Below, piece after piece: positions 11,656 to 62,054 of a DNA stretch of 64,000 nt. The notes beneath the pieces were generated by a model. It searched no databases and was not told the DNA's origin. It saw nothing but the letters and a program-made list of their open reading frames with translations. A program made the translations under genes and the position numbers. Location: contig NZ_VFRP01000013.1 of the NCBI RefSeq assembly GCF_006385685.1, positions 51,155-115,154 of the forward strand, read 5' to 3'. This DNA comes from Amaricoccus solimangrovi. Lineage in GTDB: Bacteria > Pseudomonadota > Alphaproteobacteria > Rhodobacterales > Rhodobacteraceae. Numbering within the stretch: position 1 is the stretch's first letter; every line of letters begins with the position of its first letter.

Positions 11656-12045
11656 TCAGAACAGGGCCGCCAGGATCATCACCATGGTCGCGGTGAGACC
11701 GACCCCGAAGATGACCGATCGCCAGGGCGACCAGCCGAAGGCATAGGCGGGCACGTAGAGCACCCGCGCGCCGAGATAGATCCAGGCGCAGGCGGCGGTG
11801 AGCCCGGAGGCCGCGCCCGAGAGCGTCACCACGACGACCGCGACGGTGAAGAGCGCCAGCGCCTCGAAATGATTGGCGACGGCGCGGCGCAACCGCCCGG
11901 TCAGGGGGGAATATTCCACCGTCTCGTCGCGCGGGCCGGCGTTGTAGGCGACGCCGACGTCGCGGTTCATCGACGCGTTGCCGAGCATGATCTGCGCGAC
12001 CTGCAGGATCGCGGCGAGCGCGAGGACGGTCAGCTCGGCGGTCAT
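11656..12045 (-). CDS. MAPEG-family membrane protein
   Basis: The 129-residue protein has four hydrophobic segments and the MAPEG-type motif RLRRAVANHFEALALFT. It also has the closing WIYLGARVLYVPAYAFGWSP, typical of this eicosanoid/glutathione-metabolism fold in bacteria. The bacterial members are mostly of unknown function. It lies between the orphan gene ending at 12049 and lpd, in the same direction, and is probably cotranscribed with the suc genes. The link to 2-oxoglutarate dehydrogenase is positional only. Confidence 0.85.
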   Translation of the reverse strand: MTAELTVLALAAILQVAQIMLGNASMNRDVGVAYNAGPRDETVEYSPLTGRLRRAVANHFEALALFTVAVVVVTLSGAASGLTAACAWIYLGARVLYVPAYAFGWSPWRSVIFGVGLTATMVMILAALF

Positions 12046-12048
12046 GAC

Positions 12049-12576
12049 CTACTGGCCCACCCCGCGCAAAGCGGCGTCGACCAACGGGCTTTTTCCCCCG
12101 TGATCCAAGTCAAAGTTGCGAAACCTATCAAGATTGGGAACGCTGCCGGGCAGTTCTGCCTCAAGATCATCGAGCAATGACATCAACGACAATGCGGCCC
12201 TCGACGCGCTCTCTTCTCTGCGGGCCCAATGGATAGCCCTGTCGGCCATTTGACCTCTCACATAGGTGCCAGTGAGAAAAGCTACTGCGATGCAAGTCCA
12301 AACCCGAAAGGCTAAGCTCAGAGACCCATCTGGTAGCTGGGTATTGCGAGCGAGAAGCCAAGTTACCGCATAGGGCAATATCCATGCCGTAGCACAGGAA
12401 AACAGCATAGCGAAGATGATCTCGCGCCTGGTCCCAATGACGTCCTCCCGAAGACCCTTGACGGGGCGGAGTTCTCGATCCAGACGCGAATCCACCACGT
12501 CATTGCGCGACAAGGCGTCATGCAAGATCAGCCTCAGGCGGCGAGCCAAAACAGCCTTGTCGCGCTCTTCGTTCAT
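12049..12576 (-). CDS. Unrecognised two-segment membrane protein in the suc operon
   Basis: The 175-residue product is not recognised. It has a charged N-terminal half (residues 1-45), two hydrophobic segments (about 50-70, EIIFAMLFSCATAWILPYAV, and about 88-105), and a charged C-terminal half with a short acidic stretch LLDDLEAELPG. The start follows the sucB stop by six bases, and the stop lies three bases before the MAPEG start, so it is tightly embedded in the operon. Its base composition is clearly lower in G+C than its neighbours (33 of 60 in 12301-12360), which suggests later acquisition. Confidence 0.65.
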   Translation of the reverse strand: MNEERDKAVLARRLRLILHDALSRNDVVDSRLDRELRPVKGLREDVIGTRREIIFAMLFSCATAWILPYAVTWLLARNTQLPDGSLSLAFRVWTCIAVAFLTGTYVRGQMADRAIHWARREESASRAALSLMSLLDDLEAELPGSVPNLDRFRNFDLDHGGKSPLVDAALRGVGQ

Positions 12577-57584: not shown

Positions 57585-57935
57585 ATGGCCTTGGCCCCGC
57601 GTCTGATCCGCGCCGCGCTCCTCGCCGCCGGGCTGCCGGGGGCGGCCGGGGCGGTCGATCTCGACGCGCTGACGGGGCTCGACCCGCGCGCGGCCTGCGT
57701 CGCCTATCTGCTGACCGAACTCGGCGCGCGCTACCAGGCCGGGGGCCTCGGCCAGCCGGGCTACGCGGCGGAGGCGGCGATGCTGCTCCCGATCACCCGG
57801 GGCCAGGCCGGCCGGCCCAACCCGGGGCTGGAGCGCCGCATCGACGCGATGATGGAGCGCATCTCCGCCGAGGCGCCGGGCACCGCCGAACTCGCCCGGA
57901 AGGCGGAGCTCTGCCGCGCCCGTCTGGGGCTCTGA
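57585..57935 (+). CDS. Small secreted protein, unrecognised
   Basis: The 116-residue product has an N-terminal signal-like stretch (LIRAALLAAGLPGAAGAVDL) and a helical mature part with two cysteines (DPRAACVAYLLTELGARY, ELCRARLGL). GGGAGGG directly precedes the ATG. No family was recognised. A pair of dyads follows the stop. Confidence 0.55.
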   Translation: MALAPRLIRAALLAAGLPGAAGAVDLDALTGLDPRAACVAYLLTELGARYQAGGLGQPGYAAEAAMLLPITRGQAGRPNPGLERRIDAMMERISAEAPGTAELARKAELCRARLGL

Positions 57936-57941
57936 CCCCGC

Positions 57942-58004
57942 GAATATGCATTGACATATTCACGGGTGGGCAGGCGGGTCGCGCGAATATGCAAATGCAT
58001 ATTC
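57942..58004. promoter_or_regulatory. Two GAATATGCA dyads upstream of the DUF454 gene
   Basis: GAATATG (57942-57948) pairs with CATATTC (57955-57961), and GAATATGCA (57985-57993) pairs with TGCATATTC (57996-58004); the starts are 43 bp apart, four helical turns. The A+T-rich palindromes stand out in a very GC-rich context. Their shape resembles ArsR-family operators, but the regulator is unknown. The DUF454 start lies 75 bp beyond the second dyad. Confidence 0.5.
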
Positions 58005-58078
58005 GGCGCGGGCGGGGCCGTCCGGCTTGCCGGAGCCGCCGCGCGCGCTAGCTTCCGCCGCGTCGGCGGGAGGGGGCG

Positions 58079-58471
58079 ATGGCGGAGATCGGCGGGATCA
58101 GGGGTTCACGGCTCGCGCGCGGCTTCTTCCTCGGCTGCGGCTTCTTCTTCGTCGCGCTGGGCGCCATCGGCGCGGTGCTGCCGGTGCTGCCGACCACGCC
58201 CTTCCTGATCCTCGCCGCCGGCTGCTTCGCCCGCTCCTCCGAACGGCTGGAGCGCCGGCTGCTCGACCACCCCCGCTTTGGCCCGCCGCTCCGCGCCTGG
58301 CGCGAGCACGGCGCGATCCCCCGCCGCGCGAAGTTCCTCGCGCTGGGCGGGACCACGCTCGGCTTCGCGCTGTTCCTGCTCGGGGGGTGGCACGGCTGGG
58401 TGCTGACTGGGGCGGTGGCGGCGGTGATGTTGGGCGGGGTGGTGTTCGTGTTCAGCCGGCCGTCGGGGTAG
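58079..58471 (+). CDS. DUF454 (YbaN-family) inner-membrane protein
   Basis: The 130-residue protein has a first membrane segment with [20 protein letters not shown], the hallmark of the DUF454/YbaN family, then [20 protein letters not shown] and [12 protein letters not shown], and two closing segments. Its role is unknown. The stop TAG (58469-58471) is inside a palindromic repeat unit, as for recF. The upstream dyads suggest dedicated control. Confidence 0.88.
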
Positions 58472-58537: not shown

Positions 58538-58561
58538 GGGAGGGCAAATTGCCCACCCTAC
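58538..58561. repeat. GGGCAAATTGCCC...CCCTAC palindromic unit beside the AT-rich ORF
   Basis: On the minus strand it reads GTAGGGTGGGCAATTTGCCC and begins three bases after the TAG stop of the AT-rich ORF. With the unit at 58468 it forms an inverted pair, like the two units behind recF, around about 50 bp of unexplained GC-rich sequence. Confidence 0.6.
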
Positions 58562-58564
58562 TTG

Positions 58565-59365
58565 CTAATTCGATAACAAATTACGCAAAGGTAAACTGCT
58601 AACAAATAGATCGTTCTTGGCAACAGAAACTTGTATATTTCCGAGATTTATCTCGTATATGAATCTATATTCGCGCTCGCTAGCGTAGCATGGATCTTTG
58701 TACAGAAGAGAAAACCGAAGGGTTTCGAAGAAATCGTCAACTGTCATGTCCTCTTGGGATCGAATCTTTCGTATTTTCGGCTGATAGATCACCGGCGATG
58801 CTATTGCAGTATTGTAGAAATAATCTCTATGTTGGGAAGCGATTTTATGAACATAATCCCGTGATACATTTCCAAAATCCATACATGATAATATCGAATC
58901 TGAAATATAATTCGAAAATTCATTCCTTCTATCGAATGAAATCGACCAAGAAGAATCATATTCTCTGAAATTATTATCTAAACTTCCATCGTCTATGGAC
59001 ATACAGAATATATAGCTATTTGGAAGTATATATGTAAATTTTATGGATCCAGATATTTCTGCTAGATCACTCGACGCATCTCTATTTATTATAAGTTGAT
59101 CATCTGTTGATATCAGATCGAACGAGAAATTCGGCTCTCGCCGAGGCGCTTCATTAAAGCGGATTGTTCCGAGTAAAATTGAATCTAACCAAGAGGTCGA
59201 TACAGGCGTATCTGGGCTAAATTCAAGCTCGAGATAAGATATCGCTTCATCTCGATCAACAATCTCGGCGTGTTCTACGTCGTGATACTTGTATGCATTG
59301 CCAATCAAAAGAGATTCGTTTGTTATAATATTAAATTCGGATTTACAGAATTTTCTAAGTAGCAT
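58565..59365 (-). CDS. AT-rich orphan ORF, likely horizontally acquired
   Basis: The 266-residue ORF is uninterrupted although its base composition is far from the neighbours (20 G or C of 60 in 58801-58860). The late CYASEREYRFIYEI resembles the DUF2971-type motif of phage- and defence-associated proteins; the rest has no recognised domain (no membrane segment, no signal). A weak AAG-rich sequence precedes the ATG. The start lies six bases from a degenerate lepA 3' end, the stop three bases from a repeat unit. Codon use strongly favours A/T third positions. It could be a defence, toxin or phage gene; no function is claimed. Confidence 0.6.
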   Translation of the reverse strand: MLLRKFCKSEFNIITNESLLIGNAYKYHDVEHAEIVDRDEAISYLELEFSPDTPVSTSWLDSILLGTIRFNEAPRREPNFSFDLISTDDQLIINRDASSDLAEISGSIKFTYILPNSYIFCMSIDDGSLDNNFREYDSSWSISFDRRNEFSNYISDSILSCMDFGNVSRDYVHKIASQHRDYFYNTAIASPVIYQPKIRKIRSQEDMTVDDFFETLRFSLLYKDPCYASEREYRFIYEINLGNIQVSVAKNDLFVSSLPLRNLLSN

Positions 59366-59370
59366 TTCTT

Positions 59371-59480
59371 ATCCATATTCAGCGCGTTAATGAGCGCTTA
59401 TTGCGGAATATCCACTTGGCTCGACAGGCTTATCTTATTCGCTCCCGACTGCATCTTCTCGCACCGCCTCCGCTTCCGGA
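59371..59480 (-). pseudogene. Remnant of a second lepA 3' end
   Basis: This stretch aligns without gaps to the end of the intact lepA, exactly 890 bp away: 37 of the first 45 columns match, and about 76 of 110 overall by hand count. In the lepA frame it reads RKRRRCEK..., then VDIPQ, a TAA stop where the intact gene has Glu, then ALINALNMD; the intact gene reads RKRKLLEK..., [15 protein letters not shown]. Most mismatches near the end fall at third codon positions and shift to A/T, so it came from a lower-GC lepA or has drifted. It ends where the lepA stop codon would be. Confidence 0.85.
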
Positions 59481-59520
59481 TCAATCTTACGCTTTCCGAC
59501 GTCCAGACAGCTTCGTCGCC

Positions 59521-59757
59521 CTACGCCACGTCGCTCATCCGACCCATGTCGCCCCGCCCGGCGAGCAGACCCGCGATGGAAACGTCTTCGTCGAGCACCT
59601 CCCAGTGCAGCCCGAACGGCGAGAGCGTGACGGCCTCCCGCTCGGCCGGGCTGGCGTGGAGCAGGCGGGGGAACCAGGCGAGGGGCACGCCGAGGACGCG
59701 GCCGTCCGCGAGGGTCACCCACATCGCGTCGTCGTCGAAGCGGACGCTCTCCGTCAT
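59521..59757 (-). CDS. DUF2442 protein
   Basis: The 78-residue product has the DUF2442 pattern: VRFDDDAMWVTLADGRVLGV, PLAWFPRLLHASPAERE and WEVLDEDVSIAGLL. These small DNA-binding-like proteins are usually found in pairs with DUF4160, or with DUF2283/DUF4258, in arrangements that look like toxin-antitoxin modules. The start overlaps the DUF2283 stop by four bases (ATGA). Confidence 0.88.
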   Translation of the reverse strand: MTESVRFDDDAMWVTLADGRVLGVPLAWFPRLLHASPAEREAVTLSPFGLHWEVLDEDVSIAGLLAGRGDMGRMSDVA

Positions 59758-59990
59758 GCGACCCGCAACTCCCCGCTCTCTCCGTTCATCTGGTTGACGA
59801 AGACGAGCCGCCCATCATCCCCCGCGACAAGCTGCTCGTTCGCATTGAGCAACTCGATCCCGCAGACCGCCCCCGTCTCGTCGATATCCACGAAGAAATC
59901 CGCGGTGATCTCCAGCGTCTCCACATCCCCCCGCCGCTCGCGCAGGCGGATGTAGGCGACGTTGGCCTTGGGATCATAGGAGAGCTTCAT
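59754..59990 (-). CDS. DUF2283 protein
   Basis: The 78-residue product reads MKLSYDPKANVAYIRLRERR and ITADFFVDIDETGAVCGIEL, the conserved beta-rich DUF2283 core. Such proteins are commonly next to DUF4258 and are suspected antitoxins. It overlaps the DUF2442 start and lies 11 bases after the DUF4258 stop. Confidence 0.9.
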   Translation of the reverse strand: MKLSYDPKANVAYIRLRERRGDVETLEITADFFVDIDETGAVCGIELLNANEQLVAGDDGRLVFVNQMNGESGELRVA

Positions 59991-60001
59991 CGGTCGGGCC
60001 T

Positions 60002-60262
60002 CTAGAAGAACTTCACCAGCGCGGTGATGACGAGCCAGCCGTCATCCTCGAAGACAGCATAGACTTCCACCTGTTTGGTGTCGAATGTCCTGTTCCGCCA
60101 CGCCCACGGCCCGCGGAAATTGCGGCGGAAAGCGGTTCGGCCGTTCTTGGCCGGGTAGGTCTCGCCGGTCTCGACCGTGGCGATGGCTTCCGCCTCCGTC
60201 GCCCCGCGTTCGCCAAGGCGCGCCGCGGCGTGAGGATGGAGGCGGACGGGCCTCTCACCCAT
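60002..60262 (-). CDS. DUF4258 protein (putative RelE-like toxin)
   Basis: The 86-residue product has [35 protein letters not shown] and [20 protein letters not shown], the DUF4258 pattern, remotely like RelE/ParE-type toxins. The best ATG (60260-60262) lies inside the last codons of lepA, eight bases overlapping, so it may be coupled to lepA. Downstream are the DUF2283 and DUF2442 genes. Confidence 0.85.
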
Positions 60263-62054
60263 CCATCTTCAGCGCGTTGATGAAGGCTTCCTGCGGGATG
60301 TCCACGCGACCGAACTGGCGCATCTTCTTCTTGCCCGCCTTCTGCTTCTCCAGCAGTTTGCGCTTCCGCGTGGCATCCCCGCCGTAGCATTTCGCGGTGA
60401 CGTCCTTGCGGAGCGCGGAGATCGTCTCGCGGGCGATGATGCGGCCGCCGATCGCGGCCTGGATCGGGATCTTGAACAGGTGCTGCGGGATCAGTTCCTT
60501 CAGCTTCTCGACCATCGCCCGGCCGCGGGCCTCGGCGCGGGCGCGGTGGACCATGGTGGAGAGGGCGTCCACCGGCTCGTCGTTCACCAGCACCTGCATC
60601 TTCACGAGGTCGTCTTCCTGGTAGCCGGTCACGGTGTAGTCGAAGCTCGCATAGCCCTTGGTCACCGACTTCAGCCGGTCGTAGAAGTCGAACACCACCT
60701 CGTTGAGCGGCAGGTCGTAGACCACCATCGCGCGGGAGCCGGCGTAGGTGAGGTCGAGCTGGACGCCGCGCCGGTCCTGGCAGAGCTTCAGCACGTCGCC
60801 GAGGAATTCGTCCGGGACGAGGATCGTCGCCTTGATCCGGGGCTCCTCGATATGGTCGATCCTGACCACGTCCGGCATGTCGGCGGGGTTGTGCAGTTCC
60901 AGCATCGCGCCGTCGGTCTTGTAGATGTGATAGACGACCGAGGGCGCGGTGGTGATCAGGTCGAGGTTGTATTCGCGCTCCAGCCGGTCGCGGATCACCT
61001 CGAGATGGAGCAGGCCGAGGAAGCCGCAGCGGAAGCCGAAGCCGAGCGCGGCGGAGGTCTCCATCTCGGCGGAGAAGCTGGCGTCGTTGAGCTGGAGCTT
61101 CTCGATCGCGTCGCGCAAGGCCTCGAAGTCGGAGGCGTCGACCGGGAAGAGGCCGCAGAACACCACCGGGATCGAGGGCTGGAAGCCCGGCAGCGGCTCG
61201 ACCGCGCCCTTGCGCTCATGGGTGATCGTGTCGCCGACGCGGGTGTCGCGCACCTGCTTGATCGAGGCGGTGAGAAAGCCGAGCTCGCCGGGGCCGAGCT
61301 CCTCGACCACCTGCATGCCCGGGCGAAAGACGCCGATCCGGTCCACCGGATAGAGCGCGTTCGTCGACATCATCCGGATCCGCTCGCCCTTGCGGAGTTT
61401 GCCGTCGATGATCCGGACCAGCACGACCACGCCGAGATAGGCGTCGTACCAGGAATCGACCAGCATCGCCTTCAGCGGCGCGTCGGCGCGCCCGTGCGGG
61501 TGGGGCAGGCGGGTGACGATCGCCTCGAGCACGTCGCCGATGCCGATGCCGGTCTTGGCGGAGATGCGGATCGCGTCGCCCGCCTCGATGCCGATCACGT
61601 CCTCGATCTGCTCGATCACGCGTTCGGGCTCGGCGGCGGGCAGGTCGATCTTGTTCAGGACCGGGACGATCTCGTGGCCCGCGTCGATCGCCTGGTAGAC
61701 ATTGGCGAGCGTCTGCGCCTCGACGCCCTGCGAGGCGTCGACGACGAGGAGCGAGCCCTCGACCGCGCGCATCGAGCGGCTGACCTCGTAGGCGAAGTCG
61801 ACATGGCCCGGCGTGTCGATCAGGTTCAGCACGTAGTCGAGCCCGTCCTTCGCACGGTATTCGAGCCGTACGGTCTGGGCCTTGATCGTGATGCCGCGCT
61901 CGCGCTCGATATCCATCGAGTCGAGCAGCTGTTCCTTCATCTCGCGATCCGAGACGGTGCCGGTCGCCTGGATCAGCCGGTCGGCCAGGGTGGATTTCCC
62001 GTGGTCGATATGGGCGACGATGGAGAAGTTTCGGATGCGCGAAATGTCTGTCAT
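60255..62054 (-). CDS. lepA: Elongation factor 4 (LepA), ribosomal back-translocase
   Basis: The 599-residue GTPase acts on the ribosome under stress. [20 protein letters not shown] carries the G1 motif; [16 protein letters not shown] the G3; [20 protein letters not shown] the G4. The C-terminal domain contains the LepA-specific [20 protein letters not shown] and ends [20 protein letters not shown] before [15 protein letters not shown]. Length is standard. Its 3' end is the site of a duplication. It follows a LytR_C-domain gene by 62 bp. Confidence 0.97.

Follow-up and report, generated by a model that had tools for sequence, protein, structure and literature searches.

Degenerate lepA 3' Ends Are Recurrent Scars of Cargo Turnover at a Hotspot behind lepA in the Rhodobacteraceae

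A degenerate second lepA 3' end in Amaricoccus solimangrovi is genuine and recurs in other genomes as a scar left by cargo turnover at a hotspot that is seated at lepA and mostly holds one gene. The sequence analyzed (the window) is a stretch of 64,000 nucleotides of contig NZ_VFRP01000013.1. Intact lepA, which encodes elongation factor 4 (599 amino acids [aa]; Pfam LepA_C, 1.8e-49), occupies an open reading frame (ORF) on the minus strand at 60255 to 62054. Downstream of it, on the same strand, positions 59371 to 59480 carry another lepA 3' end, now decayed, which adjoins an AT-rich gene and has the final ∼115 nt of intact lepA as its counterpart. The initial annotation had reported this copy from hand counts, and recomputation returned the same values. 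Positions 59371 to 59480 match 60261 to 60370 without gaps at an offset of 890 bp, with 76 of 110 nucleotides identical and 37 of the first 45 columns in agreement (8 mismatches). Offsets of 885 to 889 and 891 to 895 gave 27 to 42 identities over 130 positions versus 79 at 890, the runner-up 110-nt stretch on either strand of the 64 kb reached 55 identities versus 76, and none of 20,000 composition shuffles reached 76 (maximum, 48). The remnant was also found as a protein match in its own genome (E = 1.1e−5) and by nhmmer in the family survey (E = 3.1e−12). At E ≤ 10, the genome held no lepA-end match beyond intact lepA and the remnant.

Codon alignment bore out that the remnant keeps the lepA frame and contains one in-frame TAA. 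Together with the ORF list, it places the old lepA stop at 59365 to 59367 (minus strand), where there is now no stop. Mismatches at codon positions 1, 2, and 3 number 2, 0, and 6 in the last 15 codons and 9, 9, and 16 over the 110 nt; the third-position bias is confined to the region near the stop and is absent further upstream. The mismatch rate also differs between the part near the stop (8/45) and the part upstream (26/65, P = 0.02). The claim that most differing third positions carry A or T stood for the last 15 codons (5 of 6) and was softer overall (9 of 16).

The gene behind the remnant is a 266-aa AT-rich cargo ORF, codirectional with lepA (58565 to 59365, minus strand). It begins where the lepA stop would be, as had been annotated, its ATG at 59365 being the last base of the old stop position. 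No homologues were found at E ≤ 1e−3, and its C terminus carries a faint PDC-S31/DUF2971-like motif (PADLOC PDC-S31, E = 0.0053; hhalign against DUF2971 cargos, E = 0.009, probability of 4%). A maximal AT-rich segment, visible also in the GC profile, spans 58546 to 59495 (GC content of 0.38 versus 0.70 for the locus), with the remnant at its lepA-side edge, and this segment is likely an older cargo block. Between the two lepA ends lie three minus-strand genes whose names agree with Pfam: DUF4258 (60002 to 60262, its start codon overlapping the lepA end; 24.9 bits, just under the cutoff of 25), DUF2283 (59754 to 59990; E = 7.4e−12), and DUF2442 (59521 to 59757; E = 4.8e−22). These three genes appear to form a newer insert.

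Several features of the surroundings were recorded beside this arrangement. Behind the cargo lies a convergent DUF454 gene (window positions 58079 to 58471). Its nearest matches in congener G295 are remote from lepA, and those in G301 and G302 are on other contigs; since these matches sit away from lepA, the right flank is seemingly not conserved in the genus. Positions 57929 to 58009 hold a palindromic AT-rich repeat (GAATATGCAT...) with several more copies in the genome, some matching both strands. At locus L147, a DUF2442-like gene (named by eye; 11909 to 12151) lies between lepA and an AT-rich DUF2971-type gene in a layout like that of the window, and no lepA remnant is detectable there despite that layout.

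The 1 to 1.5 kb behind lepA is a family hotspot of AT-rich genes, most of them unrelated to one another and usually single at their locus. When 1,500-bp bins after lepA were scored for AT-rich segments (minimum length, 300 bp), the first bin was positive in 73 of 152 loci and the later bins in 1/151, 0/148, and 0/147. A 4-kb version of this test was positive at 77 of 155 loci, and at 72 of 148 once the seven loci that had been fetched for their second lepA matches (L034 to L039 and L042) were removed. The sample leans toward relatives with similar lepA genes because the best-ranked matches supplied the loci. GC profiles of 62 named loci, covering 10 kb on both sides in 500-bp bins, gave the same localization: a drop of more than 0.12 below the locus mean GC occurred at 34%, 42%, and 15% of the loci in the first three bins after lepA and at 0 to 5% in all other bins. 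Among 20 loci fetched from other alphaproteobacterial families, 1 of the 19 with at least 1 kb behind lepA was positive. The AT-rich segment starts within 10 bp of the lepA stop at 17 of 77 loci and within 130 bp at 52. It starts more than 200 bp away at 20, four of them at a remnant and 16 without any found, and because of these 16, cargo cannot be said always to touch a lepA end.

At 109 of 177 loci, congeners included, lepA is followed by an AT-rich ORF of 80 aa or more. These totals follow the merging of L123 and L265, which are the same record (178 to 177 loci, 110 to 109 with cargo, and 134 to 133 ORFs). The first cargo ORF is codirectional with lepA in 81 cases and faces it in 28, a bias with a binomial P value of 2.5e−7 as calculated before duplicate removal (82/110). 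Also before duplicate removal, clustering of the 134 ORFs gave 95 singletons and 14 multilocus groups. The 117 cargo proteins of at least 110 aa matched 39 Pfam families, none of them an integrase or transposase. DUF2971 was matched in five proteins and DUF3800 in four; SIR2, FRG, SocA, Schlafen AlbA, HARE-HTH, and HNH in two each; and TIR, a Pycsar effector, a Tle1-like phospholipase domain, and a marginal Abi-like domain, among others, once each. HNH endonucleases were among the PHROGs and NCBIfam matches listed (25 of 73 and 25 of 34 families, respectively), and the NCBIfam matches listed included one weak IscB match (E = 3.9e−6). The cargo proteins matched 223 PADLOC models, many of them redundant, versus 30 for 113 neighboring conserved genes. 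When 10 cargos, nine of them from remnant loci, were scanned singly, seven matched no PADLOC model at E ≤ 0.01. Because of this redundancy and these empty scans, a defense function is suggested by family names for part of the cargo only.

The initial annotation had proposed that the window remnant is a recombination scar at the lepA 3' end and that the regions downstream of lepA in relatives should be inspected for other partial lepA ends. Such ends were found in other genera. A 42-residue LepA C-terminal query matched 269 of 295 Rhodobacteraceae genomes at E ≤ 1, two of them only weakly, and the 42 genomes besides that of the window with more than one match were searched again. In 7 of the 269 genomes, the window genome included, a second partial lepA end lies in the same orientation downstream of lepA and is followed by an AT-rich gene. 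The seven belong to seven genera and share one order: intact lepA is followed by a spacer, by the remnant, which extends to where its stop codon would be, and then by the AT-rich gene. The second ends lie 65 to 780 bp behind lepA, comprise 66 to 190 nt of duplicated lepA sequence, and contain internal stops in four cases (G000, G038, G107, and G101). The AT-rich gene overlaps the remnant end or lies within ∼20 nt of it in six of the seven; in G038, it starts ∼100 nt further on and has an internal stop, and its AT-rich segment falls below the threshold of the segment test. When each of 168 loci was queried with its own lepA end, a strong second copy (E ≤ 4.8e−10) was found at seven, six of which had been fetched because of that second match, versus none of 88 controls with internal lepA sequence (best E, 4.5e−4). 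The best match to reversed sequence had an E value of 2.8. The 5' boundaries of the remnants fall between about −73 and −187 nt relative to the stop; those of G640, G101, and G107 cluster near −145 to −155, at most ∼10 nt apart.

Across the class, 360 of 385 genomes were matched, four of them twice (the window genome, G640, G489, and G326). G640 is a fresh case of a second lepA end. Its lepA end is repeated over 142 bp at 98.6% identity with a different gene behind each copy: a single AAA-ATPase ORF between the copies (GC content of 0.46 versus 0.57 for lepA) and an 813-aa ORF behind the second (GC content of 0.45). Fresh and old cases alike can be read as lepA, newer unit, older lepA end, and older cargo. 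Second matches in G048, G119, G190, G489, and G326 were not counted because they lie on other contigs, at contig edges, or in a broken frame. The second copy is on another contig in both G489 and G326. In G489, loci L331 and L334 on different contigs have 381 bp in common at 97% identity, covering the lepA end, and one of the two stretches holds only an 86-aa open frame. In G048, the second piece lies on contig C17 (L041, 7442 to 7708) and its match to the 104-residue query breaks off at residue 89; an intact lepA end is present on contig C18.

Two genera preserve steps of turnover. In the genus of G274, four species have in common lepA, the remnant, and between the two a spacer that by eye is toxin-antitoxin-like, and they diverge from about the base after the remnant stop codon. 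Behind the remnant lie different AT-rich ORFs in three of them and none of at least 80 aa in the fourth, G313. Since the four species share the remnant and differ behind it, the contents have changed behind a noncoding lepA end. The intact lepA ends of these four species differ from that of congener G316 in the last codon and stop context, and the G316 lepA end resembles the remnant of the group. A second copy of the spacer occurs ∼2 kb downstream of lepA in G315 and G314 (L320, 772 to 1221, minus strand; L322, 2698 to 2917), with homology beginning immediately behind the lepA stop, at the first base. Eight species of the G107 genus have the right flank in common, with two starting points, and differ in the contents of the slot. 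G107 and G310 have the spacer and its junction into the remnant in common, and G310 retains 18 nt of the remnant and no cargo. Because those 18 nt are retained, G310 was ruled out as an ancestral empty site, and its state probably reflects later cargo loss.

The direction of events in the window, which the initial annotation had left unsettled, is now better supported. By comparison with the other genera, the remnant and its AT-rich gene are most likely the older arrangement; for the window, this reading rests on those genera, as no relative shows the state before the event. Among 11 genomes of the same genus, lepA was matched in nine, the window genome included, and none of the others has the remnant or the AT-rich ORF among the 27 first-pass candidates scored per genome. 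The remnant matches its own lepA at 76 of 108 positions, with five other loci tying among the eight best listed, and congener lepA ends at 67 to 75. By this comparison, it is closer to no single lineage. Donor assignment by best match was abandoned, pieces of 66 to 180 nt being too short to resolve it.

The hotspot is firm; the mechanism and the vehicle are our inference. Of several routes, we judge the best, and slightly likelier to be right than wrong, to be homologous recombination on one side only, with the lepA 3' end as anchor, by which the older end is displaced together with its cargo. In the window, incoming DNA carrying a lepA end and the DUF4258, DUF2283, and DUF2442 genes would have recombined into lepA; the crossover inside lepA is predicted to be homologous and the join at the other end illegitimate. 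The former lepA end would thereby have been displaced with the old cargo and become the remnant at 59371 to 59480 and the AT-rich gene behind it. Each arrival would anchor by homology in the lepA 3' end, a form of homology-facilitated illegitimate recombination as defined in PMC3240628. A far end joining beyond the old cargo, or by flank homology, would swap the cargo, and one joining inside the resident lepA 3' end would leave a remnant and old cargo behind. Because the far end would join where it can, one process would fit both the remnant loci and the loci where cargo touches lepA. The DNA may be brought by gene transfer agents or by transformation. According to PMC9836097, gene transfer agents are particularly well conserved in Rhodobacterales, and those of Rhodobacter capsulatus pack ∼4 kb per particle (PMC6363796), which leaves room for lepA and one cargo gene. 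The cargo may be expressed by read-through from lepA, as the 81 codirectional first ORFs suggest.

The anchored reading draws its support from the older 3' end and cargo that are shifted downstream of a constant anchor in seven genera and in G640, from the concentration of AT-rich segments in the first 1,500 bp, from the histories preserved in the genera of G274 and G107, from the variable 5' boundaries, and from the lack of integrase and transposase families by Pfam among the 117 cargo proteins. Several observations count against it. None of the congeners searched preserves the preceding state, the gene behind the G038 remnant stands ∼100 nt off and contains a stop, and 16 AT-rich segments lie away from lepA with no remnant found. 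The origin of the remnants is not traceable by lepA-end comparison. Import into lepA should leave mosaic 3' ends, so the lack of a mosaic signal weighs against it: third-position differences near the stop in the one genus tested, with the poorly aligned G304 left out, were 0.170 versus 0.172 and 0.127, with no clear excess. The three boundaries near −145 to −155 also count against it, because a site-specific crossover would give the same, and homology alone leaves the choice of lepA over its neighbors unexplained. Matches to lepA ends in 20 plasmid records (several being chromosome-sized replicons) and in eight phage records (with Listeria or Enterococcus labels and, in seven cases, lengths below 7 kb) were considered as possible carriers, and no carrier is claimed from them.

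The remnant might instead have traveled with its cargo. A donor lepA 3' end plus AT-rich gene would then have inserted downstream of an unchanged resident lepA, by an illegitimate join on the lepA side and by flank homology or a second illegitimate join on the other. The AT-rich gene stands directly behind the remnant in six genera and after ∼100 nt in G038, the intact lepA end of the window looks native (six of eight congeners are its closest matches), and some remnants score slightly higher against the lepA of another genus than against their own, all of which fit such an origin. However, the youngest-looking cases are own-lineage copies (152 of 180 positions to its own lepA and 142 to the next best in G038; the nearly identical repeat of G640), G640 has a cargo gene between its copies as well, and in the G274 group it is the intact ends that depart from G316 while the remnant resembles it. 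We therefore consider a traveling end doubtful. A simple local duplication of the lepA end that later decayed, while unrelated genes happened to land close by because the intergenic region is permissive, would account for the short length of the duplicated piece, the scarcity of such ends (7 of 269 genomes), and the 16 AT-rich segments that lie away from lepA without a remnant. It is disfavored as highly improbable by the AT-rich gene behind the remnant in all seven genera, by the single remnant common to four species that differ right behind it, and by the confinement of the AT-rich peak to the lepA side.

The 3' ends of tRNA genes serve as integration sites of genomic islands and prophages, and the initial annotation had likened lepA to them, possibly as the target of an undescribed class of cargo element. 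A self-mobile element of this kind was not supported: Pfam families among the 117 cargo proteins include no integrase or transposase, the 5' boundaries of the repeats are spread between about −73 and −187, and no second lepA end was found within the 6.5 kb searched behind cargo that sits beside intact lepA. A related possibility is that a recombinase acting in trans and itself unseen uses the lepA 3' end as its attachment site, much as tyrosine integrases do with tRNA 3' ends, so that a remnant would be the site displaced at each integration. The gene-end repeats that flank a compact insert in G640, the sharp localization to lepA alone over ∼10 kb on either side, the three coinciding boundaries, and the mobile-DNA-type nucleases in a few cargos (HNH in two by Pfam and the weak IscB match) would agree with it, as would prophages of Latilactobacillus curvatus reported in lepA (PMC10688831). 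Weighed against the missing integrase, the spread of the other boundaries, and the cargos without a second end, site-specific integration seems quite improbable.

Among known systems, type VI effector-immunity arrays of Vibrio cholerae resemble the anchored route in their logic. For these, a process close to homology-facilitated illegitimate recombination has been proposed, with rhs tip displacement cited as a related case (PMC5361080). In both settings, a conserved stretch anchors incoming DNA, the far join is proposed to be illegitimate, and both a displaced gene 3' end and the older cargo end up further downstream. The V. cholerae arrays anchor upstream of an effector-immunity module, whereas here a housekeeping gene, lepA, provides the anchor with its 3' end, the slot is family wide, and the cargo is usually one unrelated AT-rich gene. 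Integrase-less hotspots (PMC5635113) are similar in that cargo at a fixed place is exchanged rapidly by means of core-gene homology, often with no recognizable mobile element. High turnover between conserved flanks was found here as well (eight species of the G107 genus; 95 singletons among 134 cargo ORFs), but only the lepA side is constant across genera, about one gene is held, and partial core-gene copies remain as scars.

Islands at trmE and dusA integrate at gene 3' ends (PMC8409611), and together with the L. curvatus prophages in lepA, they share with the lepA slot gene-end repeats and a gene restored by the incoming copy. Unlike them, the lepA slot has no integrase found and a variable boundary, and most of its cargo has no far-end attachment repeat: a direct repeat of the lepA end is present in G640 and the seven remnant loci and was not found within 6.5 kb behind cargo beside intact lepA. 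Two further articles retrieved with "lepa" (PMC9122126 and PMC8791490) were discarded, as the word is an author name in them and not the gene. Core defense hotspots of Pseudomonas aeruginosa and defense islands of Escherichia coli (PMC10250203 and PMC10121019) are likewise fixed places with changing contents, in their case defense genes; the slot at lepA in the Rhodobacteraceae differs in holding mostly one gene and in being marked by lepA-end scars.

About half of the sampled Rhodobacteraceae loci carry an AT-rich gene at one precise place, usually a different one in each genus. Many cargo genes lack a family name and others are of defense type, and the slot is therefore a ready list of candidate antiphage genes. 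The remnants are fossil steps of cargo turnover without a visible mobile element, and they open the uptake and replacement of cargo at integrase-less hotspots to direct testing in a family noted for its gene transfer agents. Integron cassette arrays add one-gene units beside a fixed site and push older units away. The lepA slot is like them in holding one gene per unit at a fixed site and in the proposed displacement of older units, but no integrase was found, and cargo orientation is not fixed (81 first ORFs with lepA and 28 against). A more far-reaching proposal, which we think unlikely to be correct as a whole, would make the lepA 3' end a dedicated, family-wide docking end. Single defense genes would circulate fused to lepA 3' ends, and each arrival would restore lepA and shunt the earlier end and gene downstream, a recombinase-free counterpart of the integron platform fed by gene transfer agents in roughly 4-kb packets of lepA and one cargo gene.

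Two minor observations concern the sequence just behind lepA. At 10 of 155 loci (L075, L088, L108, and L132 among them), a perfect hairpin, its stem 9 bp or more in length (maximum, 20 bp), is centered within 6 nt of the lepA stop, the last lepA codons being inverted just behind it, versus 0, 0, 1, 0, and 0 loci in five shifted controls. This hairpin is possibly a terminator or a break-prone palindrome. Structured RNA behind lepA was also considered and set aside, an Rfam search of four loci having returned a single tRNA gene, which lies in G274 (L038, 4738 to 4808) ∼0.5 kb past the end of the cargo behind lepA.
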